A stretch of DNA of 64,000 nt, from assembly GCF_001544915.2 (NCBI RefSeq), contig NZ_FCOE02000001.1:372001-436000 (forward strand), read 5' to 3'. The DNA comes from Caballeronia pedi. GTDB lineage: Bacteria; Pseudomonadota; Gammaproteobacteria; Burkholderiales; Burkholderiaceae. Below, piece after piece: positions 40,015 through 60,653 of the stretch. The position numbers and the translations under genes are program-made. Numbering within the stretch: position 1 is the stretch's first letter; every line of letters begins with the position of its first letter. The notes under the pieces were generated by a model, which saw only the letters and a list, made by a program, of their open reading frames with translations, was not told the DNA's origin and made no database searches.

Positions 40015-41193
40015 GTGAACCGAACCTTGAAAGCACTTATGGCGCGAGGTGTTGATTCGATAACAGCCGCGTCGATAAGTGATGGAGGGCATAGCATAGC
40101 CGCACTTAGGGCGAAATCTCTTCCGGAACTTCTCTCGCTTGGTTTGCCCGAAAATATTGCGAAAGATATATATTCGAAGCGAACACCGATTCCTGCTAAG
40201 ACGCTACTGAAACTGCTTCACGACAATAAGTGGGTGTGCTGTGTCTGTCGGTCGGAAAGTGCGCCGGTTGTGATACATCATATTGAACCGTGGGCCAAGA
40301 GTCGGTCCCACGAGGCAGACAACTTGGTCGTACTTTGTCCGTCGGATCACGCCAAGGCCCACAGCAAGGGAGCGCTTTCACAAAACCTATCACCCGAAGC
40401 GCTTCGCGACGCGAAGCGTCGTTGGGAAGAGCAAGTTCACATTGACGACGCTCTAGTGATTCGTCGGGCGGCTCAGACGGTAGGTGAATATTGGTTTTTT
40501 TTCAATCTTCTTCGTCTCCACGAAATTGCGAGTCACGAGGGTATTGATTGGACGTCTCTGCCCCATTATTCAGAGTCAAGACGAGCCGGGATACTAGACG
40601 AATGCGGCCACTTGGTTCCGGAAACCACCGACAGTAATTACGCTTACTCAGGAAGGTTCGGCTCGCTGAGATATGCATACGCGAAGGATCTGTTCCTGAC
40701 CGTGCTCGACCGATTGTCGATAGCTGACCTGTCAGGTTTTTCGAAGCGGGGCCATGTTGTAGCATCGCCCATAAAGAATGACATCATATATGTCGAAGGT
40801 GCATTCAATTTCAAACGTCTGAGTCGAACAGAGTTAGGCCCGAATCAACGAGTGCAAGCGTCGCGATTAAAGAAGGGTGTCCGCGTTACATTTTCGTTTG
40901 ATCGTTGGTATGCGACGTCTACTTCCGCGAACTCCGTGTGGTTGACTGGTCGCAAGGTTGTAGGGTGCTTTTGTAGAGTCGGTGATGTTTCTCGCGAGAA
41001 CGGAGAAATCGTATATACGTGCACAGTTCTCGCGATTTCTGAAGAGCTATCGAGCCTACGAGACTTGTCTTATCTTGATGCTTTTACGCCGGCCCTTCAA
41101 ACGCCCCAAGATCAACGAGACACGGAGCGCCCGCCGATAGACCGAGACGCGCTAATCAAGGCTCTTGAATCTCAACTTTGGCACTTTAAGTAA
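40015..41193 (+). CDS. HNH endonuclease-domain protein
   Basis: A 392-residue protein with an HNH nuclease core: the zinc-type pair Cys75/Cys78 (KWVCCVC), His88-His89 (VVIHHIEPWAKS), Asn103 (ADNLVVLCPSDHAKAH), His112 and His116. The first 60 residues look like a helical DNA-binding region. The C-terminal 220 residues are not recognised. The GTG start has a GGAG site seven bases upstream. Codon use is visibly AT-richer than in the efflux and metabolic neighbours, so recent transfer is likely. It could be a restriction or phage-defence nuclease or a mobile-element remnant; no methylase or partner is next to it. Confidence 0.82.
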   Translation: MNRTLKALMARGVDSITAASISDGGHSIAALRAKSLPELLSLGLPENIAKDIYSKRTPIPAKTLLKLLHDNKWVCCVCRSESAPVVIHHIEPWAKSRSHEADNLVVLCPSDHAKAHSKGALSQNLSPEALRDAKRRWEEQVHIDDALVIRRAAQTVGEYWFFFNLLRLHEIASHEGIDWTSLPHYSESRRAGILDECGHLVPETTDSNYAYSGRFGSLRYAYAKDLFLTVLDRLSIADLSGFSKRGHVVASPIKNDIIYVEGAFNFKRLSRTELGPNQRVQASRLKKGVRVTFSFDRWYATSTSANSVWLTGRKVVGCFCRVGDVSRENGEIVYTCTVLAISEELSSLRDLSYLDAFTPALQTPQDQRDTERPPIDRDALIKALESQLWHFK

Positions 41194-50503: not shown

Positions 50504-50962
50504 TCAGGCGCCGCGATGCTTTTTCTGGCAATCAGCGCACAGCCCGCTCAGCTCGACGACCTGGTGATGCACCTGAAAGCCATGCGCGGGCGGACTTGCG
50601 GACAGCGACGAAGCAAGTTCGCGGCCCTGGATTTCGAGCGTGGCGCCGCATTCATCGCAGATGAGGAACTGGCTTTCGTGCGGCGTGCCCGCGTCGCAGC
50701 ACGCGACGAACGCGTTCTTCGACTCGATGCGGTGCACGAAGCCGTTCTCGACGAGAAAATCCAGCGCGCGATAGACGGTGGTCGGCGGCACGCGCGCGCC
50801 GCGCTTGGGCTCCATGACGTCGATGAGGTCGTAGGCGCCGATCGGCTTGTGCGCCTTCAGCACGAGTTCGTACACCTGGCGGCGCAGCGGCGTGAGTGCG
50901 ACGCCGCGCTCGATGGCAAGGGCTTCGGCGCGCGCCAGGATGGATTCGAGGGATGCGGTCAT
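50504..50962 (-). CDS. zur: Zinc uptake regulator, Fur family
   Basis: A 152-residue Fur-family repressor that shuts off zinc uptake when zinc is plentiful. The winged helix (LTPLRRQVYELVLKAHKPIGAYDLID, PPTTVYRALDFLVENG) is followed by the regulatory zinc region (HRIESKNAFVACCDAGTPHESQFLICDECG) and a C-terminal CxxC (LCADCQKK). The Met at 50962 gives the family start; the frame is open to 51019. It heads the znu genes on the same strand, and a candidate Zur box is 83 bases upstream. Confidence 0.92.
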   Translation of the reverse strand: MTASLESILARAEALAIERGVALTPLRRQVYELVLKAHKPIGAYDLIDVMEPKRGARVPPTTVYRALDFLVENGFVHRIESKNAFVACCDAGTPHESQFLICDECGATLEIQGRELASSLSASPPAHGFQVHHQVVELSGLCADCQKKHRGA

Positions 50963-51044
50963 GTCAGGTCGGCCACCGGGGCGGCGCATTTGAAGATGTC
51001 TACGTCCCGACGCGCGCAATGGCGGACGTCAGGAAAAGTTGAGA

Positions 51045-51207: not shown

Positions 51208-51732
51208 TTATCGTGGTTGACTTTCCACGCTACGGACCAGAAGCACGGACAGGGTGAAGCCCGCGCTATGAAAATCGATGGAGCCGTCCGTGAGATTGAA
51301 GTAGTAGTACGTGCCGGGCATGGCTACCGTCGAGGTCCAGAATTTTGCGCCTTCGCCGAAGTCAGATAGCGCGACATCCGGAAACGCTCTGGCATCGATC
51401 TTGGGCCCCTTGCACGAATTCACGCGGATCGTGTCCATTTCACGTCCAGTAGGAACGCGCCATCCTGGACCTGCTCGTTGCGCAGCCCGTCGTGCTTCGT
51501 ACTGACTCAGACCGGCTGGCTGACCGGCGCATCGTTGTTTATTCTTGTCCCATTCCCTGCCGACGGCACATCTTTTCCAGATCAGACCGGTCTTTCGGAT
51601 GACCGCGAGGTCGCCTTGCAGCGTGATGTCTTTATCGAATCCTCGAACGCAGGTTGCCTTGCCTTCAGAGCATGTCAGAAATGACAACAGGGATACAAGA
51701 GGCAAACACCATCTCATTTTCGCAATATTCAT
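51208..51732 (-). CDS. Exported DUF1566/Lcl-like protein, last gene of the car cluster
   Basis: A 174-residue exported protein. The signal peptide is about residues 1-26 (LVSLLSFLTCSEGKATC). The rest resembles the DUF1566 (Lcl C-terminal) fold: DLAVIRKTGLIWKRCAVGREWD, AQRAGPGWRVPTGREMDTI, FWTSTVAMPGTYYYFNLTDGSIDF. Two Cys pairs could form disulfides in the periplasm. It follows the 149-residue protein by about 18 bases on the strand of the biosynthetic genes. No enzyme activity is indicated. Given its place, a self-protection or accessory role in carbapenem production is possible, but this is inference only. Confidence 0.7.
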   Translation of the reverse strand: MNIAKMRWCLPLVSLLSFLTCSEGKATCVRGFDKDITLQGDLAVIRKTGLIWKRCAVGREWDKNKQRCAGQPAGLSQYEARRAAQRAGPGWRVPTGREMDTIRVNSCKGPKIDARAFPDVALSDFGEGAKFWTSTVAMPGTYYYFNLTDGSIDFHSAGFTLSVLLVRSVESQPR

Positions 51733-51750
51733 GGGTTGTGATGTCCTGAT

Positions 51751-52200
51751 TCATTTCGCTGAGTAGCTCAGTCGGCCGGCGCGCGCGTCATGCATGATCG
51801 CGTAGATGAGCGGATCGTTCGTGACGCGAATGCGGCCGGTGTGCACGAGCTTGTTGCCGATCAAGGTCGTGCCGCGCACGAACTGGCAGTTGTCGAAGCA
51901 ACTCAATGTTCCGCTGCTCGCGCCATCCTGATATCGGATGACAGGTTCGTTCTCCTTGCTCGTGCCCGCGTACCAGACCAGCACCAGGCTCTGCACGTCG
52001 TCTGCGTCGCCGCCGGGCACCTTTGCATACTCATACGCGTCGCCTTTCCTGCCGACATAGTAGTGATTGGGTATGGGTGTTGACGTAGCGCGCCCGGCAG
52101 ATGATCGGTCGACCGCTGAGTCCCCGAGAGTCGGGTGAGCGACGAACAGCGCTGGAAGCAGGACCACCTGAAACCTGAGAATGCGAAGAAGCAGGTTCAT
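51751..52200 (-). CDS. Small exported protein of unknown function in the car cluster
   Basis: About 149 residues from the ATG at 52200, which starts a signal peptide (MNLLLRILRFQVVLLPALF, cleavage near LGDS). An ATG at 52212 overlaps the preceding gene stop (TGATG) and would suggest translational coupling, so the start is uncertain. The mature part is rich in beta-type sequence (NHYYVGRKGDAYEYAK, SLVLVWYAGTSKENEPVIRYQDG) with one close Cys pair (SCFDNC). I do not recognise the family. Its size and export match the carbapenem immunity proteins CarF/CarG in general terms only. Confidence 0.6.
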   Translation of the reverse strand: MNLLLRILRFQVVLLPALFVAHPTLGDSAVDRSSAGRATSTPIPNHYYVGRKGDAYEYAKVPGGDADDVQSLVLVWYAGTSKENEPVIRYQDGASSGTLSCFDNCQFVRGTTLIGNKLVHTGRIRVTNDPLIYAIMHDARAGRLSYSAK

Positions 52201-52211
52201 GTCCCGACACA

Positions 52212-53003
52212 TCACATGCGACGCGGATTGCCCGCGAGACTTCTGGCGTCGAGATCGATATTCTCAGCCCGGGCAAACTCTGGCATGGTGTGCCACTTCG
52301 CGACACCGTTCGGCAAACCATACGCGAGCTCGCCATCCTTCGGCTCATCATAGGTATCGGGCGCGCTTGTAAAGCGTGTCTTTCTCCATGCCAAAGCGAT
52401 GAGCTGCCTCTTTTTGCCAGGCAGCACCTTGAAGACACGGATCCATGCCGGGTGCTCGTCGAGCGCGGACAGCTCAGAACCATCACTGTCGCCCATGGAA
52501 GATGCACGTGCCCAGCCGACCTCGATGATCTTCACTGTTTTGCCCGCTTGATCCAGTTGCTCCTGCCTTTGAACCTGTTTGCCCAGTAACTGAAAGCGCG
52601 ACACCGGAATATGCGAGCCGGCCCGAAAGTATTCTGCGATGACCCAGTCTCCGCCCGAGGAAACAATGGGCACGTCCCGGCGGCGGTCATAGCCATAGAT
52701 TCCGGTCAGGTGCGACAGCAACGATTGTGGAACTTGAGCATCGGGAAATGCGTAGCGGGCGGGCTTGAAGTCGCCGGTTTCGGATGCGATCGAGTTGGCT
52801 GCATTCATATCGAGCTTCAACTGCTGAGGCGGCAAACTAATCGAGATGAGTCGCCCATTGGCGACGATGGCGACGTAGGGCGGATGCACGGATTGGACCG
52901 TCCTGGTCAAACGCGGGTTCGAAGTCAGAGTTGTAGCGCCGGAATGTTTCGAAGTGGCGATGAGTGCGGCCGTGAGCAAGAGCCCTATATGCCAAAATTT
53001 CAT
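52212..53003 (-). CDS. Exported protein of unknown function in the car cluster
   Basis: A 263-residue protein. The Met at 53003 starts a good signal peptide (MKFWHIGLLLTAALIATSK, cleavage near SGATT). The frame is open to 53096, but 53003 fits the 13-base gap to the preceding gene. The mature region has a beta-rich pattern (HPPYVAIVANGRLISISLPPQQLKL, IPVSRFQLLGKQVQRQEQL) and a C-terminal part with WIRVFKVLPGKKRQLIALAWR. No conserved domain is recognised. It is one of four consecutive exported proteins that follow the carbapenem-type enzymes. Confidence 0.65.
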   Translation of the reverse strand: MKFWHIGLLLTAALIATSKHSGATTLTSNPRLTRTVQSVHPPYVAIVANGRLISISLPPQQLKLDMNAANSIASETGDFKPARYAFPDAQVPQSLLSHLTGIYGYDRRRDVPIVSSGGDWVIAEYFRAGSHIPVSRFQLLGKQVQRQEQLDQAGKTVKIIEVGWARASSMGDSDGSELSALDEHPAWIRVFKVLPGKKRQLIALAWRKTRFTSAPDTYDEPKDGELAYGLPNGVAKWHTMPEFARAENIDLDARSLAGNPRRM

Positions 53004-53016
53004 GATTCGGAAATCT

Positions 53017-53577
53017 TCAACGAGTGAGAGGCGGACGAGCGGTCCGTTCGAGGTCAAAAGAGCAGTGAGTTCCCATCGCATACTTGATTTCTTCAATGCC
53101 GCTATCGCCTGCGTGGCAGAACCATTTCACGGCTTCCCGACAATTTGCGGACGTGCCAGTACCGGTCGCATACAGGTAAGCGACGATCATCGCGGCTTCC
53201 ACGTCGCCGTGTTCCGCGGCGCCAAGAAACGAGGCGAACGCTCGCTTCGAATCCTTCTCCGCGTGCTTGCCTGTCAGGTATGCAGCTCCGATATCGAAGC
53301 GCATCTCGTTCGACATCGTTCGCTCCGTTTGCGCATGGGGCGAAGCGATATCGCCGTCAGATGGCAGCCTTTTCGATCTTTGTTCGCTGAGGCGAAATGC
53401 AATCGCATTTTCTATATCCACACGGGTGACGATACTTCGCAGTAGCCCGCTTTCGAGCGCGCACGATGCAGGTTGGGCCAAGGTCTGCTGGTGCCCGTGC
53501 AAAAGAGATAAGCAGAGGGCGGCGCGTAGCAGGCGCCGCAGGATCGACGTCAGGCCCGCCACAAGCGAGCCCGTCAT
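53017..53577 (-). CDS. Exported Sel1-repeat-like protein coupled to the second crotonase
   Basis: A 186-residue protein from the ATG at 53577, which overlaps the stop of the crotonase gene as ATGA. A signal peptide spans about residues 1-35 (ending TLAQPA). The C-terminal half has two Sel1/TPR-type helical repeats (FDIGAAYLTGKHAEKDSKRAFASFLGAA and AAMIVAYLYATGTG, REAVKWFCHAG). Sel1 proteins act as protein-protein scaffolds. The 4-base overlap with a biosynthetic gene is the strongest evidence that the exported proteins belong to the same operon and function. Confidence 0.72.
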   Translation of the reverse strand: MTGSLVAGLTSILRRLLRAALCLSLLHGHQQTLAQPASCALESGLLRSIVTRVDIENAIAFRLSEQRSKRLPSDGDIASPHAQTERTMSNEMRFDIGAAYLTGKHAEKDSKRAFASFLGAAEHGDVEAAMIVAYLYATGTGTSANCREAVKWFCHAGDSGIEEIKYAMGTHCSFDLERTARPPLTR

Positions 53578-54320
53578 ATCTGGTCTACGTCGAACAGTTT
53601 CTTGTACATGTGCCGGGCAGCCGGAAGACACGACTTCAGTTCCTCGACCATGTCGCGCGCGACGATGCGCTTCGTGTGCGCGAAGACCTGCGGCGAATAG
53701 CCGGCGAGCCTTTGTGCCCAGTGTAACGCGGTGGGCGTCAGGTCCTGGTCACGCACTGCCGAATTGATCAGGTTGTATTCCATGGCGGCAATCGCACCGA
53801 TTTCGCGGCAGCCGTAGATCATTTCGGTGGCGACGCCATACGAGACGAAGTGTCGAAGGATCGTTGCACCGACCGCGCATCCCACGCCTTGAGTGAGTTC
53901 CGGTTCGGCGAATTGCGCGCCGTATGCCGCGACTCGAATATCGCAGAGCAGGGCAAGCTGCAGGCCTTGCCCCTTTACCTCGCCCTGGATGGCCGCGACG
54001 ATGGGTTTAGGGCAATTGAGCAACGCAAGGTAGAGCGCGATGATGCTGTCCAGCCAGGCATCGACATCGTTTTCGCCTCTGATTCCGGCGACGTCCCGGA
54101 CGTCTCCGCCGGCGCAGAACGACGCGCCGGCAGGACCCGAAAGGATCAACGATGCGATCTCGGGGTCGCGGCCCGCGGCCTCGATCGCGCGGACGGTTTT
54201 TCGCCGCGCATCCGCATCCAGGAAGTTGCTCGGAGTTGCGCCGTCCAGAGTCAATTGAACGACCTTCGACGAAGGATGTTCCACCCGAACGAGATTGTCC
54301 ATGAAGCTGATTGTTTTCAC
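53574..54320 (-). CDS. Second CarB-like crotonase of the carbapenem-type cluster
   Basis: A 248-residue crotonase-fold enzyme. The GTG at 54320 is preceded by GGAGGAG; an in-frame TTG at 54332 overlaps that site and is unlikely. Sequence pattern follows CarB more than ordinary enoyl-CoA hydratases: the oxyanion-hole segment SFCAGGDVRDV, then GEVKGQGLQLALLCD, and the Glu141 block EPELTQGVGCAVGATILRHF, which matches CarB PELKHGIGCSVGAAIL. It lacks the second Glu of hydratases. It is clearly diverged from the CarB at 56631-57407. Possible roles are a carboxymethylproline synthase with another acyl-CoA, a thioester hydrolase in the pathway, or supply of an alkyl-malonyl unit. Confidence 0.8.
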   Translation of the reverse strand: MKTISFMDNLVRVEHPSSKVVQLTLDGATPSNFLDADARRKTVRAIEAAGRDPEIASLILSGPAGASFCAGGDVRDVAGIRGENDVDAWLDSIIALYLALLNCPKPIVAAIQGEVKGQGLQLALLCDIRVAAYGAQFAEPELTQGVGCAVGATILRHFVSYGVATEMIYGCREIGAIAAMEYNLINSAVRDQDLTPTALHWAQRLAGYSPQVFAHTKRIVARDMVEELKSCLPAARHMYKKLFDVDQI

Positions 54321-54419
54321 TGTCTCCTCCAAACTAACGAGTCACCGCGCGAACGCAGCCCCGCGAGGCCTGCACGCATCAGATCGTCGCATGTAAAAAT
54401 GTAAAATTGATTCGGATGA

Positions 54420-54460
54420 CAAAATAATACAGCGTCACATCCATGACGGATGAAACGCTG
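54420..54460 (-). terminator. Terminator or attenuator between carC and the second crotonase
   Basis: Read on the - strand, a two-part stem (outer arms 54455-54460 with 54430-54435; inner arms 54448-54452 with 54438-54442) is followed directly by TATTATTTTG. It lies 21 bases after the carC stop. The AT-rich stretch that follows (54395-54430) could hold a secondary promoter for the downstream genes. Confidence 0.6.
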
Positions 54461-54480
54461 TCGTGGAACCAGCCGGGCGC

Positions 54481-55356
<876 letters not shown>

Positions 55357-55440
55357 CTATCTAGAGGTGGGAGGGTTTTTCCGAAAATCCCGTCGAGAGC
55401 GGCGACGCGCCGCCGCCGTCAGCGGAATAGTGAAACGCAA

Positions 55441-56634
55441 CTACGTTGTGTAATGGCTGTTCAACTCGACATACGAGGGCGACAGGTCGCATCCCAGCAC
55501 CTCGGCGCGCCCGTCGCCGATCGCTAGGTCAACGTGGATGTCCAGATGTCGCGAGCCGCGCATCGATTCGCGTACCGCAAGGACATCCGGTTCGCCTGAT
55601 GACGGGTACACGCGGATGCCACAAATCGAAATGCGTGTGCGTTCCGGATCGATACGGTAGTTGCGATCGCATTTGCCAATGGCCATCGCGACTCTGCCCC
55701 AGTTAGGGTCATTGCCGTGAATGGCTGTCTTGACCAGTGGAGAGTTAGCAATCGACTTCGCGATCGCCTTGGCGACCGATGCCGATTCGGCCTGTTCGAC
55801 GATGACCTTGAAGATCTTGGTCACGCCCTCGCCGTCGCCCATAACCATCGTCGCGAGGTGCGAAGCGGCATCGACCAATGCGTGTTTGAATGCGTCGGCG
55901 CCGACCGGACCAGCGAGTCCGTTCGCGAAGATCGCACAACTGTCGCTGGTGGACGTATCCGAATCGACCGTGATGCAGTTGAACGTCTCGTCGATGACCG
56001 AGGCAAGACTCGACTGCAAGATGGGCTGGGCGATTTGCGCATCGGTAAAGAAGTAGACGAGCAGCGTTGCCATGTCCGGCTCGATCATTCCGACGCCCTT
56101 CGCAACTCCTACGAGCACACTGTTCCCAACCGGAATGCAGACCGCCTTGGGCGTCGTGTCGGTGGTCATGATCGTTTGCGCGAAGGCGCGAAAGTCGGCT
56201 GGCGCGGTCAACCGGTCCCGATCAGAAGGCAGCGCCTTCGCGATCCTGTCAACGGGCAGTCGTCTGCCGATGACGCCCGTCGCGGCGCTTTGCACTTCGT
56301 CGGGGGCAATGGCGAGTTGCCCGGACAAGCGCCGTATGAGCGAGTCCAGATCCGCCACTCCCTGCGGGCCGGTCGCGACGTTCGCGTTCTTGGAGACAAC
56401 GAGCAACGCGCGCGCCGAGCCATGGATCAGTTGCCGGCGCGACGCTCGAACCGCCGGACTGGCAAAGTGACTGCGTGTGTAGACGCCGGCCACCGCGCAC
56501 GGGACTTCGCTGAACATCACGGCGACGTCGCGTGACGCATCCTTGATTCCAGCGGAGGCGACGAACGTTCTGAAACCGCGCGGCATCGGCGAGGCATCAC
56601 TCAATGGCAGTGAAATGAAATCACGGTCTTTCAT
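55441..56634 (-). CDS. ArgJ-type glutamate N-acetyltransferase inside the car cluster
   Basis: A 397-residue ornithine acetyltransferase of the Ntn fold, which moves the acetyl group from N-acetylornithine to glutamate, releasing ornithine. The autocleavage motif is present as KGVGMIEPDMAT followed by LLVYFFTD, with the new N-terminal Thr as nucleophile. The oxyanion segment TDTTPKA and the C-terminal NSHYTT are also seen. Its ATG overlaps the carB stop (ATGA). The clavulanic acid gene clusters carry an analogous OAT. Known car operons instead have carD (proline dehydrogenase) and carE. Here the enzyme would raise ornithine and hence glutamate semialdehyde/P5C, the CarB co-substrate. A housekeeping argJ is presumably elsewhere. 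Confidence 0.88.
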   Translation of the reverse strand: MKDRDFISLPLSDASPMPRGFRTFVASAGIKDASRDVAVMFSEVPCAVAGVYTRSHFASPAVRASRRQLIHGSARALLVVSKNANVATGPQGVADLDSLIRRLSGQLAIAPDEVQSAATGVIGRRLPVDRIAKALPSDRDRLTAPADFRAFAQTIMTTDTTPKAVCIPVGNSVLVGVAKGVGMIEPDMATLLVYFFTDAQIAQPILQSSLASVIDETFNCITVDSDTSTSDSCAIFANGLAGPVGADAFKHALVDAASHLATMVMGDGEGVTKIFKVIVEQAESASVAKAIAKSIANSPLVKTAIHGNDPNWGRVAMAIGKCDRNYRIDPERTRISICGIRVYPSSGEPDVLAVRESMRGSRHLDIHVDLAIGDGRAEVLGCDLSPSYVELNSHYTT

Positions 56635-57407
56635 TGGGCGTCCATGCTCACTTCGCTTTCACCGAGCACGCGTGCGAAATGTGCGTGCGGACTGCGGGCT
56701 AAGAACGCAGCCTTGTGAACGCGCTTGGATGCATCAGCGGATTGCAGCAGCACTTCGCGCATGCTTTGCACGATGGTCTGCTTGGTCGCGCGATAGGGTA
56801 CTTGCGGGTACGACGCCATCTCTTCCGCACGAGCGATGGCGTCGAGCAATAGTTGCTCGGGCGTCGATAGCCGGTTCACGATGCCATAGGTCATGGCCGT
56901 CTCCGCGTCTATCGGTTCGCACGCGAATACGATTTCCTGCATGCTCGAATACCCCAGGGCGTGCCGCAATATCGCTGCACCCACCGAGCAGCCGATACCA
57001 TGCTTCAACTCCGGCATGCGAAATTCCGCCGACCTGGCGGCTTGCCGCCAGTCGAACATCAACGCGAACTGAAAGCCCATGCCGATGGCGTAGCCATCGA
57101 TGGCCGCGACCGTGGGCTTGTCGACAGTCAGGACGCTCGAATACAGATCCGTGATTCTGTCGATCCAGCGATCGACTTCCTCGCCGCCCTTCATCAGCTT
57201 CACTTCGTTGAAATCACCACCTGCACTGAACGAGCGGTCCGGACCGCCTGTCACGACGACGGCGGTGACGGAGGGGTCGGCGTTCGCTCGCGCGAGCGCT
57301 GCCTTGATGCTGTTTTCGAGTTCAGCGCTGAACGGATTCATTCGGCTCGCGTGATTCAGCGTCACGACGCGGACGCCTCGTACATTGGTTTCCATGACCA
57401 GCGACAT
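56631..57407 (-). CDS. carB: Carboxymethylproline synthase CarB, crotonase superfamily
   Basis: A 258-residue enzyme. CarB condenses malonyl-CoA with P5C/glutamate semialdehyde to form (2S,5S)-carboxymethylproline, the first committed step. Oxyanion-hole residues Gly64 (RSFSAGGDFNEV) and Met110 (DGYAIGMGFQFALMFD), and the catalytic Glu133 (MPELKHGIGCSVGAAIL), all lie two residues beyond the Pectobacterium CarB positions I recall (62, 108, 131). Other shared stretches are ALARANAD and SKRVHKAAFLAR. AGGAGA precedes the ATG. Its gene overlaps the OAT gene and lies 24 bases after carA. Confidence 0.93.
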   Translation of the reverse strand: MSLVMETNVRGVRVVTLNHASRMNPFSAELENSIKAALARANADPSVTAVVVTGGPDRSFSAGGDFNEVKLMKGGEEVDRWIDRITDLYSSVLTVDKPTVAAIDGYAIGMGFQFALMFDWRQAARSAEFRMPELKHGIGCSVGAAILRHALGYSSMQEIVFACEPIDAETAMTYGIVNRLSTPEQLLLDAIARAEEMASYPQVPYRATKQTIVQSMREVLLQSADASKRVHKAAFLARSPHAHFARVLGESEVSMDAQ

Positions 57408-57431
57408 CGATCTTCTCCTGTTGAGGTAACG

Positions 57432-58934
57432 TTAATGCTTGTGCGTTTCCGCGTCGGGCGGCGCGTCTTCGCCGGACAGATACGCCCGATACTTGCAATA
57501 GGTGTATTTCGTCTTTGCTGCGTAGTCGCTGGTTTCGACGCCAACGTGGGCCGCGAAGATGCTGTTCACGGAAGATCCTTCGTGGATCCCGATCTTGCGT
57601 CGCCAGACGATCTCCTCCGGAAGCAGCGCGTTCTCCGCCGCGCATTCCCGCAGCATGACTTTGACTTCGTCATCCGAAACCTTCATCTCCGGCGCGAGGT
57701 TGAGCGCGAACGTCATGAGACGCGTCGTCCAGAACGGGTGGTGAACTTCGAGGCCGTATCGATTGGCGCCGTATTGAGAAAACTCACCGGTCCAGCGCGT
57801 CCGATAGACTTGCCGCCATAGTTCCGCATTTGCGTCATTAGGCGCGCTGCCGGCCTTCAGAACGCCGCCGAACAGCAGATCCGAGCCATAGCCCGTGACG
57901 ATTCGACCGCCAGTGCTCTCAAGCGACCTGTACAGACACAGGAGACTGGCCTGGATTTCGGCCGACAAGCCGTCGAATATCTCGTTGTAGTAAATGGCTT
58001 CGTGGGCTCCTCGTAGGATCGCATCGTCGCTGAAAGTCAACTCGCGATGTGTGGTGCCGACATGGCGCGCCACCGTCTGCGCGAACGCAAATTCGTTGCT
58101 TGTGCCGGTGCCAATCGCGAACGTGCTGAGTTCCGGTCGATGCCGTGCGGCGATCGCTGTCACCATGCTCGAGTCCAGACCGCCGGACAGGGGAATCGAA
58201 ACCGGACCGCTCGTATCCGTAACGCTTTTCACCGACGCTGAAAGCAATGAATAGGTCAGTTGTCGCGCGTGTTCGCGTTTCAGTCGCTGGGGCGTCGCGA
58301 GCCTGAGCGTCAGATACTGGCGTGCGTTGATCATCGAATGACCACGTCCATCGAAGCCGAATTGGCAGACTGATCCCGGCCGGATGCGCTCTGCGTTGCG
58401 AATGGGCAGAAAGGTATCTGCCCGGTCGTCGTGCGCGATGACCTCGTTCTCGGGCAGGAAATCGAATTCTCCCGGCCCGCACAGGCCAACATTCTTGAGT
58501 TCGGAGGTCACCCACAATGCGCGGCCGCGCACTACGTGGACGGGCTGCAAGCCGAGCGCGTCCGTGGCGACGGTCAGCTTGCCTCGCGGCCCGAAGGTCA
58601 GGAGGGTGTACGGCCCTTCGACGAGGGAAAGAATCGCGTCGCCGTAGGCTTCGAGAAGGATCACCAAGACTTGAACGATATTCGCCGACAGCGCTTCCGC
58701 CGTCACCAAAGTCGCGACCGAGCGCAACTCGTCCGCGTTGGTCGGGCGTCCGATCAGGACGTGAGTCTGATTGTTTTCGACATGCATGATTTCTGATTGA
58801 TGGGTGCCGCGCCATCTTTTTAACCAGAATTGCCAGCCCGATATTTCGAGAATGTCCCCTTGGCGTCGTAAATCCGCCAGGGAAGCCGTAAGTGGCCGGG
58901 CTGCATTCGGAGTGGCGACAAATGAGAATGTCAT
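57432..58934 (-). CDS. carA: Carbapenam synthetase CarA, beta-lactam synthetase family
   Basis: A 500-residue ATP-dependent ring-closing enzyme related to asparagine synthetase B. CarA adenylates carboxymethylproline and closes the beta-lactam ring to form carbapenam-3-carboxylate. No Cys follows the start Met, so the N-terminal domain cannot act as a glutaminase, which is a hallmark of beta-lactam synthetases. The PP-loop is SGGLDSS (250-256). The catalytic dyad Tyr349 (TGYGSDLLFGG) and Glu384 (RTRWTGEFS), and Lys447 (WRRKIGIHEGSSVN), lie four residues beyond CarA Tyr345, Glu380 and Lys443 as I recall them. YYNEIFDGLSAEIQ is also shared. No clear ribosome binding site is seen. Base composition is AT-richer than in the flanking operons. 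Confidence 0.94.
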   Translation of the reverse strand: MTFSFVATPNAARPLTASLADLRRQGDILEISGWQFWLKRWRGTHQSEIMHVENNQTHVLIGRPTNADELRSVATLVTAEALSANIVQVLVILLEAYGDAILSLVEGPYTLLTFGPRGKLTVATDALGLQPVHVVRGRALWVTSELKNVGLCGPGEFDFLPENEVIAHDDRADTFLPIRNAERIRPGSVCQFGFDGRGHSMINARQYLTLRLATPQRLKREHARQLTYSLLSASVKSVTDTSGPVSIPLSGGLDSSMVTAIAARHRPELSTFAIGTGTSNEFAFAQTVARHVGTTHRELTFSDDAILRGAHEAIYYNEIFDGLSAEIQASLLCLYRSLESTGGRIVTGYGSDLLFGGVLKAGSAPNDANAELWRQVYRTRWTGEFSQYGANRYGLEVHHPFWTTRLMTFALNLAPEMKVSDDEVKVMLRECAAENALLPEEIVWRRKIGIHEGSSVNSIFAAHVGVETSDYAAKTKYTYCKYRAYLSGEDAPPDAETHKH

Positions 58935-59879
58935 GGCAATGATCAGTTGAGTTGAGCGCTCTCGCGCGTTAAATGCGCTAAATGCCTTAAAACAACAGGT
59001 CGGCGATTTTTAGCGGTGTCTGAATCGGGAATTTCTAGGCGAACAGCGCCAATGGCGCCCGTTCGCGGCCCCGAATCGCCATCGGCAATATTCACTCGTT
59101 GAGACTTCGTGCATGCGAGTTTGCTTCGTCGAGCAAGATCGCCATGAAATCCCGGCGAAACAGTCGTATCGCGGCAATAAAGACTGGGTGAGTCCTTTAC
59201 TCGGCCGAGACGTGACGAAATGGGCTCAAGCGTGGATTGTCGTCGCCCGACTCTCTCTCGGTCAGGAGGCAAGAGGCCGAGCGCATCACGATCGATGTTT
59301 TTGTTCTTGCGCGAAATCGCGTCTGTGCTGGATTGGAATTGCTGAATTTAGGCAACATGAGGCGTCTCCTTTTTAAGCGCTCGATAGGGCGCTTCTACTG
59401 GTAAAACGTGAATCTATCTTTTCGCAAGTTGAATCGATGGGGAAGATTAAAGCATAACTAAGCATTTTATAAAATGGATTTGATTCGCAAAATTTTGTAA
59501 CTCTCGTAATGTATCGCTTGTCGTGTGAATTGATTAATTTCGGGATGAGAGAAATTGCGTGATGCGTAATTCTGAAAAGGCATATTTATTGAGCGTGTCT
59601 GATCGATATTTAGCCCGACCGATAATTAGGAGAATCTCGGACCGAGATTATGCATCCATAATCGATCGTCCTTCGCGGTACGCTCCTTGCTCATTTGCCC
59701 CGTGCCAGACGGGTTTTCCCCAGCACCTCCGGCCGTTTGCGCGCCGCAACATCGAAACCCGCGCCGATGCCTTGACACGATCACGCACAACGCCGATCAT
59801 TCGATCAAACAGAGAGCAATTGTTCACTCGCAGAGCGTTCGCTCACGCGAGAGGCGATTCAAAGCTATCGGAGACATCG
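58935..59879. promoter_or_regulatory. 945-base AT-rich divergent region, carA and smoS
   Basis: No credible gene is seen; small open frames at 58943-59272 and 59113-59376 overlap each other on opposite strands and resemble nothing. The part from 59380 to 59690 is strongly AT-rich. A direct repeat TAAATGC occurs at 58970-58976 and 58979-58985, about 40 bases before carA. No lux-box-like palindrome and no regulator gene is visible, in contrast to carR-controlled operons. The region marks the right edge of the accessory cluster. Confidence 0.5.
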
Positions 59880-60653
59880 GTGAGACTGAAAGACAAGGTC
59901 GCGATCATCACGGGCGCTGCGAGCGGCATCGGCGAAGCGGTCGCGCGGCGCTATCTGGAGGAAGGCGCGCAGGTCGTCGTCGTCGACGTGAAAGACGAGC
60001 ACGACATGGCGCAGCGCTTCACGGATGTCGCCACGCGCGTGCTCGCGCTCAAGGCCGACGTCACGCGACGCGAAGATATCGAGCGCATCGTTGCGCGTAC
60101 CGTCGAGCAGTTCGGCGGCGTCGACATTCTCTTCAACAACGCGGCGCTCTTCGACATGCGCCCGATCCTCGACGAATCCTGGGACGTCTACGACCGCCTC
60201 TACGCGGTCAACGTGAAAGGCATGTTCTTCCTGATGCAGGCGGTCGCGAAGCGCATGGTCGAGCAGGGGCGCGGCGGCAAGATCATCAATATGTCATCGC
60301 AGGCCGGGCGGCGCGGCGAGGCGCTCGTGTCGCATTATTGCGCGACCAAGGCGGCGGTGATCAGCTATACGCAATCGGCGGCGCTCGCACTCGCGAAGGA
60401 ACGCATCAACGTGAACGGCATCGCGCCGGGCGTCGTCGATACCCCGATGTGGAAGGAAGTCGACGCGCTCTTCGCACGCTACGAAAACCGCCCGCTCGGC
60501 GAAAAGAAGCGTCTCGTCGGCGAGGAAGTGCCGCTCGGGCGCATGGGACTGCCCGCCGATCTGACCGGCGCGGCGCTCTTTCTCGCGTCATCGGATGCGG
60601 ATTACATCACCGCGCAGACGATCAACGTCGATGGCGGCAACTGGATGAGTTGA
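59880..60653 (+). CDS. smoS: Short-chain dehydrogenase, SmoS-like polyol dehydrogenase
   Basis: A 257-residue classical SDR. The NAD-binding motif is TGAASGIG, and the catalytic Ser140, Tyr153 and Lys157 are in NMSSQAGRRGEALVSHYCATK. The length and the C-terminal GLPADLTGAALFLASSDADYITAQTINVDGG fit the sorbitol/L-iditol 2-dehydrogenase (SmoS/PolS) branch. The GTG at 59880 has GGAG six bases upstream; the longer frame to 59559 is not supported. It heads a polyol ABC transport cluster, which supports the polyol substrate, though the exact sugar alcohol is inferred. Confidence 0.82.
   Translation: MRLKDKVAIITGAASGIGEAVARRYLEEGAQVVVVDVKDEHDMAQRFTDVATRVLALKADVTRREDIERIVARTVEQFGGVDILFNNAALFDMRPILDESWDVYDRLYAVNVKGMFFLMQAVAKRMVEQGRGGKIINMSSQAGRRGEALVSHYCATKAAVISYTQSAALALAKERINVNGIAPGVVDTPMWKEVDALFARYENRPLGEKKRLVGEEVPLGRMGLPADLTGAALFLASSDADYITAQTINVDGGNWMS

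Follow-up and report, generated by a model that had tools for sequence, protein, structure and literature searches.

A stretch of 64,000 nucleotides of Caballeronia pedi (contig NZ_FCOE02000001.1, positions 372,001 to 436,000), referred to here as the window, was analysed, and a biosynthetic gene cluster of the carbapenem type was identified in it. The cluster is composed of nine genes on the - strand (51208-58934), in the order carA, carB, OAT, carC, crot2, Sel1, X7, X8, X9. Our analysis indicates that it probably directs the synthesis of a simple carbapenem, with pyrroline-5-carboxylate (P5C) likely supplied through OAT and exported proteins, X7 and X8 among them, likely conferring self-protection; the predicted product is most likely (5R)-carbapen-2-em-3-carboxylate. 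An earlier note on this DNA had placed the host in the Burkholderia group, which was borne out, the window being one stretch of a Caballeronia genome of 9.14 Mb. All nine reading frames are open; carB/OAT, crot2/Sel1, and X7/X8 overlap by 4 bases, carA and carB are separated by 24 nucleotides, and the largest intergenic gap, between carC and crot2, measures approximately 160 nucleotides. The G+C content is 0.555-0.61 at 50-60 kb, compared to 0.60-0.68 over most of the remaining window.

The genes carA (57432..58934), carB (56631..57407), and carC (54481..55347, with a GTG start) encode orthologues of carbapenam synthetase (500 amino acids), carboxymethylproline synthase (258 amino acids), and carbapenem synthase (288 amino acids), respectively, as proposed in the earlier note, which had described three adjacent genes for CarA, CarB, and CarC. 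The best PDB match of CarA was 1q15 (E 1.7e-110), followed by the beta-lactam synthetase 1jgt (7e-30) and asparagine synthetases (about 2e-21); CarB matched 2a7k (E 1.2e-86), and CarC matched 1nx4 (E 1e-122), the next other oxygenase being at 2e-6. Additionally, CarA passed the Pfam cut-off for PF09147 (CarA_N). All the catalytic residues that had been named in advance were found on alignment, namely Y349, E384, and K447 in CarA, G64, M110, and E133 in CarB, and H104, D106, H254, and R270 in CarC, the last four being invariant across 18 aligned CarC sequences; W81, Q113, and H231 of CarB and the epimerisation tyrosine Y168 of CarC were present as well. The offsets to the reference numbering, said to be constant over whole proteins, were so for CarB (+2), CarC (+3), and the C-terminal half of CarA (+4); in CarA the local alignment starts at residue 56 with an offset of +5 that shifts to +4, so the statement was slightly too strong for that protein. 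For CarB, a passage of PMC6542682 gives Gly62 and Met108 as oxyanion-hole residues; for CarC, a passage of PMC6097109 names Tyr165 (Y168 in the window) as probably donating the hydrogen when C5 is epimerised. The roles of the other residues checked are presumed.

Phylogenetic analysis pointed in the same direction. In a tree with generic crotonases as the outgroup, as suggested beforehand, 21 of 21 CarB sequences fell into one starred clade apart from the nine generic crotonases of the source genome. In a CarC tree, the CarC of the window grouped with those of Burkholderia sp. THE68 and C. novacaledonica. The alternative that these genes are ordinary asparagine synthetase, enoyl-CoA hydratase, and TauD paralogues would draw on the fact that the Car proteins do belong to those superfamilies, and on the absence of a Car-specific NCBIfam model among the matches listed (for the crotonases, the best 25). 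Given the ranking of the PDB matches, the CarC and CarB trees, the CarA_N match over its cut-off, and the residues checked, we regard it as practically without chance; the alignments and trees refute a generic AsnB, crotonase, or TauD identity. On sequence grounds, carA, carB, and carC are thus full-length orthologues, as had been claimed, and by orthology and residues in all three proteins the genes belong to the carbapen-2-em-3-carboxylate (car) cluster.

The fifth gene, crot2, encodes a second CarB-related crotonase (53574..54320), with a probable GTG start at 54320 behind the motif GGAGGAG; the listed open reading frame starts with TTG at 54332. Its best PDB match was CarB (E 2.4e-38), to which it is 36% identical, scoring 145 bits, whereas the next-best crotonase in the genome reached 73. 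In a tree rooted on the nine generic crotonases, crot2 grouped with CarB with a support of 92, a placement that carries a long-branch warning. The equivalents of CarB Gly62, Trp79, Gln111, and Glu131 are retained, the last three of which we take to be key residues. A Gln occupies the position of Met108, which steers stereochemistry according to a passage of PMC6542682. These features suggest that crot2 is a divergent carboxymethylproline-synthase-like enzyme, and among the clusters compared it was restricted to the three from Caballeronia.

The gene OAT (55441..56634) encodes an ArgJ-type acetyltransferase, which exceeded both NCBIfam cut-offs for ArgJ (NF003802 with 394.7 bits, cut-off 351, and TIGR00120 with 323.8 bits, cut-off 298). 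Its Thr190, presumably the nucleophile of self-cleavage, lies at the point where the two chains of solved relatives part, and by family score and this threonine the protein is an ArgJ ornithine acetyltransferase. The remaining ArgJ of the source genome is only 36-38% identical to it, and OAT is therefore regarded as a dedicated copy. The best PDB match was 1vz6, named ornithine acetyl-transferase (E 1.5e-95), which we take to be OAT2 (orf6) of the clavulanate cluster of Streptomyces clavuligerus. The reference list of PMC9927107 names a paper assigning ornithine acetyltransferase activity to ORF6.

Taken together, these genes allow a pathway to be proposed. OAT would divert N-acetylated arginine intermediates to P5C, either via ornithine or by deacetylating N-acetylglutamate semialdehyde directly, and in this way may help to supply P5C. 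From malonyl-CoA and P5C, CarB would then form carboxymethylproline, which CarA would cyclise to the beta-lactam at the expense of ATP; epimerisation at C5 and desaturation of the ring would fall to CarC. These reactions are described for the Pectobacterium enzymes in a passage of PMC6097109. The periplasm would be protected by X7 and X8, and perhaps by X9 and Sel1.

The four genes downstream of crot2 encode presumably exported proteins; by eye, all four N-termini resemble signal sequences, in agreement with the earlier note. They comprise a Sel1-repeat protein (53017..53577, its ATG at 53577 overlapping the crot2 stop), whose Pfam match is just below cut-off, the predicted immunity proteins X7 (52212..53003) and X8 (51751..52215, small and beta-rich), and X9 (51208..51732), with an Lcl_C (DUF1566-type) match and a faint resemblance to CarF; Sel1 and X9 were the only ones with Pfam matches. 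When X9 (5 sequences) was compared to CarF (17 sequences) profile to profile, the probability was 16%, with E 0.0016 for one pair. Neither PF21955 (CarG) nor PF03781 (CarF) matched any of the four proteins, and these models did detect the CarG of locus L020 and the CarF of P. acidicola, respectively. The X7 family comprises 62 database proteins, all organism-named members being from Burkholderiaceae, while the X8 family comprises 17, itself included. Structural models of X7 and X8 had a mean predicted local distance difference test score of 84 and 78 and were confident in the folded parts.

The cluster is inserted between a gene for a Fur-family regulator, which we take to be zur (50504..51019, - strand), and an open reading frame for a short-chain dehydrogenase (SDR; 59559..60653, + strand, from Pfam and the junction survey); the genes after zur are presumably znuA, znuC, and znuB. 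Among 42 same-genus genomes with a readable zur-SDR junction, three carried the full cluster, nine carried only X7-type genes, and 30 had none of the genes searched. The nine orphan loci consisted of X7+X8+X9 (two, one with a stop inside X7), X7+X8 (two), X7 alone (three), a broken X7, and an X7 fragment. All 12 same-genus matches of X7 were situated at this junction. Outside the genus, X7 was found in eight genomes of two other genera, with no car genes in the fetched stretch. A C-terminal piece of Sel1 adjoins X7 in two of the nine orphan loci (36 residues, E 6e-10, and 27 residues, E 7e-8). These remnants have the look of a deletion boundary within a formerly complete cluster, and a Sel1-X7 island devoid of car genes would be equally able to leave them. 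Since some relatives keep the exported-protein genes alone at the same junction, X7 and X8 are likely involved in self-protection. The same view is suggested by Pectobacterium, in which, according to a passage of PMC6813493, strains that have no car cluster retain carF/carG, and a sensitive strain gains protection from carFG; by analogy, X7 and X8 are likely immunity proteins.

As a separate observation, a distant X7 adjoins a gene encoding a class C beta-lactamase (524 and 520 bits, cut-off 415) in two closely related genomes. In the first (L120, 6678-8763), the X7 homologue and the beta-lactamase are followed by a divergent PenR-like regulator below cut-off, while in the second (L121, 5667-7855) the X7 frame is broken into two pieces.

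Regarding selection, the ratio of non-synonymous to synonymous change (pN/pS) was below 1 for nine of nine genes in all three Caballeronia species pairs, as computed without a significance test. The lowest values were obtained for carA and carB (0.05-0.14, with carA at 0.05-0.11) and carC (0.09-0.18), followed by OAT (0.16-0.20), crot2 (0.20-0.26), X7 (0.18-0.31), and X9 (0.24-0.38). Synonymous divergence between the window and the two other Caballeronia clusters (L016 and L017) was 0.52-0.85 for the cluster genes, 0.26 for znuA, and 0.30-0.37 for zur. On the tree of the flanking genes, presence at the junction required 9 changes, compared to a shuffled mean of approximately 11, which amounts to no more than slight clustering.

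Several observations weigh against the proposed pathway and its immunity component. No ornithine aminotransferase exceeded the family cut-off in the genome (best 292.5 compared to 378.4 bits), which leaves the ornithine route without a dedicated enzyme. The pathway would then have to use the acetyl-semialdehyde route or an aminotransferase of wider specificity, and OAT might do no more than increase the supply of ornithine or arginine. Sel1 and X8 evolve fast (pN/pS 0.46-0.66 and 0.40-0.55), the predicted structures of X7 and X8 showed no clear match to known structures, and of the nine orphan X7 copies, three are disrupted or reduced to a fragment. X7 occurs in 20 family genomes, 17 of which have no CarC, and it was not found in the 20 kb around the cluster of a Burkholderia plantarii-like genome. 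The X7 tree follows the flanks poorly (rho 0.28 over 65 non-independent pairs); for example, the X7 of genome G001 is 83% like that of the window, and that of its flank sister G119 is 61%. The beta-lactamase neighbour occurs in two of ten X7-bearing genomes (144 of that genus) within the fetched stretch, and as the two beta-lactamases are 91% alike, this neighbourhood represents one event and lends the immunity role weak support, the Pectobacterium precedent being the closer one. One could regard X7, X8, X9, and Sel1 not as immunity genes but as common envelope genes gathered at an integration hot spot, an explanation that would account for the X7 copies unaccompanied by CarC, the high turnover at the junction, and the lack of a known fold or domain in X7 and X8. 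We consider it unlikely, although it deserves attention, because X7 and X8 also occur together in the P. acidicola cluster despite its different gene order, X8 proteins are few, Sel1 pieces lie beside orphan X7 in two genomes, and five X7 pairs with intact orphans gave pN/pS values of 0.27-0.38, near those inside the cluster, with synonymous sites close to saturation in some orphan pairs.

A role for crot2 and OAT, which are extra to the three core genes, could also lie in a modified carbapenem or carbapenam, if crot2 accepted a malonyl-CoA bearing a substituent or a different imine, or if OAT acted on the product side. The retention of the CarB key residues in crot2 but with Gln at the Met108 position, together with its pN/pS of 0.20-0.26, would fit such a product. 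On the other hand, crot2 is missing from the P. acidicola cluster even though the CarC encoded there is 81% identical to that of the window, no further tailoring oxygenase, methyltransferase, or transferase was found among the nine genes, and OAT is a clear ArgJ-family member; a modified product therefore appears somewhat less likely still than the hot-spot explanation. The remaining alternative, a silent or decaying remnant, could invoke the absence of a regulator among the nine genes, while the P. acidicola and B. plantarii-like clusters have one of the LuxR type, and the absence of the cluster from most same-genus relatives examined. The nine open frames, the pN/pS below 1 in three species, and the overlapping, operon-like order make it improbable. 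A simple carbapenem with protection by exported proteins thus remains our preferred interpretation.

CarC homologues are rare. A search of 5.8 billion proteins yielded 1395 candidates, of which 62 were homologues at E<=0.001. CarC was present in four of 398 family genomes, source genome included, and in the source genome only among 399 genomes drawn from the order; in a further set of 61 genomes, 24 had some CarC match, three of them strong (the source, C. jiangsuensis MP-1, and Caballeronia sp. INDeC2) and the best other at 1.6e-11. Twenty CarC loci were found in a scan with one genome per species. In MP-1 and INDeC2 the gene order is that of the window, both flanks included, and related clusters were found in P. 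acidicola ATCC 31363 (L018) and the B. plantarii-like genome (L042). The circle of carriers is therefore wider than Pectobacterium, Serratia, and Photorhabdus, the producers known to the earlier note. Other close CarC homologues carry the names Azospirillum, Oscillatoriales (a metagenome-assembled genome), and Variovorax humicola, and these suggest that the pathway may extend beyond Burkholderiaceae and gamma-proteobacteria. A CarC-like oxygenase of Rosenbergiella (L035, 9902-10795; 36% identity) had no carA or carB match within 20 kb and was excluded from the cluster counts. The CarC of P. acidicola bears the public label 'spore coat protein CotH', apparently a misannotation.

The five beta-proteobacterial clusters (the window, L016 and L017, both from Caballeronia, L018, and L042) were compared to 16 gamma-proteobacterial ones. 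OAT was found in 5/5 beta and 0/16 gamma clusters, CarD, CarE, and CarG in 0/5 and 16/16, CarF in 1/5 and 16/16, and CarH in 0/5 and 14/16. In the whole 64-kb window, no match was obtained for CarR, CarD, CarE, CarF, CarG, or CarH (tblastn, E 1e-3), nor for glutamate-5-kinase-like, EamA, or LuxR-type genes. In gamma clusters, CarD and CarE supply P5C from proline; the OAT carried by the beta clusters and the glutamate-5-kinase-like gene of two of the five could all be steps directed at P5C. The P. acidicola locus (L018, 10001-19819) comprises carC, a glutamate-5-kinase-like gene (179.4 bits, cut-off 186), carA, carB, an EamA exporter, Sel1, CarF, OAT, X7, and X8, with a LuxR-type regulator containing an autoinducer-binding domain upstream. 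Its CarA, CarB, and OAT share 78-81% identity with L042 but 49-62% with the window; for CarC the relation is inverted, with 81% to the window and 59% to L042. By sequence, this cluster is a mosaic in which carC is of the Caballeronia type and carA/carB/OAT are of the B. plantarii type, and in our boldest reading, carC may have been exchanged together with X7/X8. More broadly, and only tentatively, a beta-proteobacterial carbapenem pathway could be envisaged in which a dedicated OAT draws P5C from N-acetylated arginine intermediates, X7/X8 guard the periplasm as a new class of beta-lactam immunity proteins, carC and immunity constitute a swappable module of toxin step and antidote, and non-producers keep the antidote alone.

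Regarding the remaining features, the A+T-rich region 5' of carA (58935..59558, - strand) is a presumed promoter or leader, with patches that by eye are common to INDeC2 and MP-1; Rfam gave no match in it, and carA may have a long leader there. Away from the car genes, an A+T-rich island (40015-41193, G+C 0.549) encodes an HNH-endonuclease-domain protein.

Genes of such clusters are already recognised by automatic annotation and antiSMASH: the name '(5R)-carbapenem-3-carboxylate synthase' is attached to several metagenome proteins, and a passage of PMC11153758 prints an antiSMASH hit in B. plantarii. In the open-licence literature, outside whose scope most subscription journals lie, no description of a Caballeronia car cluster was found; the main texts of PMC8506256 and PMC13178297 do not mention carbapenem or lactam, nor does PMC7912996 mention carbapenem biosynthesis or lactam. 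What is new is thus a car-type cluster in Caballeronia with OAT, a second crotonase, and different exported genes, the chemistry being of a known kind. A second architecture with a different precursor supply and self-protection would offer non-enteric producers to study. Carbapenems are last-line drugs, and the exported proteins are candidates for conferring carbapenem tolerance without resembling beta-lactamases; the junction tally makes the question of which of them is the antidote accessible to simple gene deletion. To our knowledge, detailed work on the simple natural carbapenem comes from Enterobacterales.

When compared to known systems, the window shares with the carRABCDEFGH cluster of Pectobacterium and Serratia the carA-carB-carC orthologues, the same predicted core chemistry, and small exported proteins downstream. 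It differs in bearing OAT, a second crotonase, and other exported proteins, as the earlier note had recognised in calling its gene content and order unusual, and in lacking the CarD/CarE supply of P5C and the CarF/CarG immunity of that type; it is, judging from its genes, a distinct beta-proteobacterial type. P. acidicola ATCC 31363 has OAT, Sel1, X7, and X8 in common with the window, in a different order and with CarA and OAT each only 49% identical, and crot2 and X9 were not found there. The B. plantarii-like cluster has CarA, CarB, CarC, and OAT as in the window, but its CarC is only 58% identical; it carries LuxR-type, glutamate-5-kinase-like, and EamA genes, and X7, X8, and Sel1 were not found within 20 kb. 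Finally, the clavulanate cluster of S. clavuligerus is another beta-lactam cluster with its own ArgJ-type acetyltransferase, OAT2 (orf6); clavulanate is derived from arginine and glyceraldehyde-3-phosphate, whereas carbapenems are built from P5C and malonyl-CoA.

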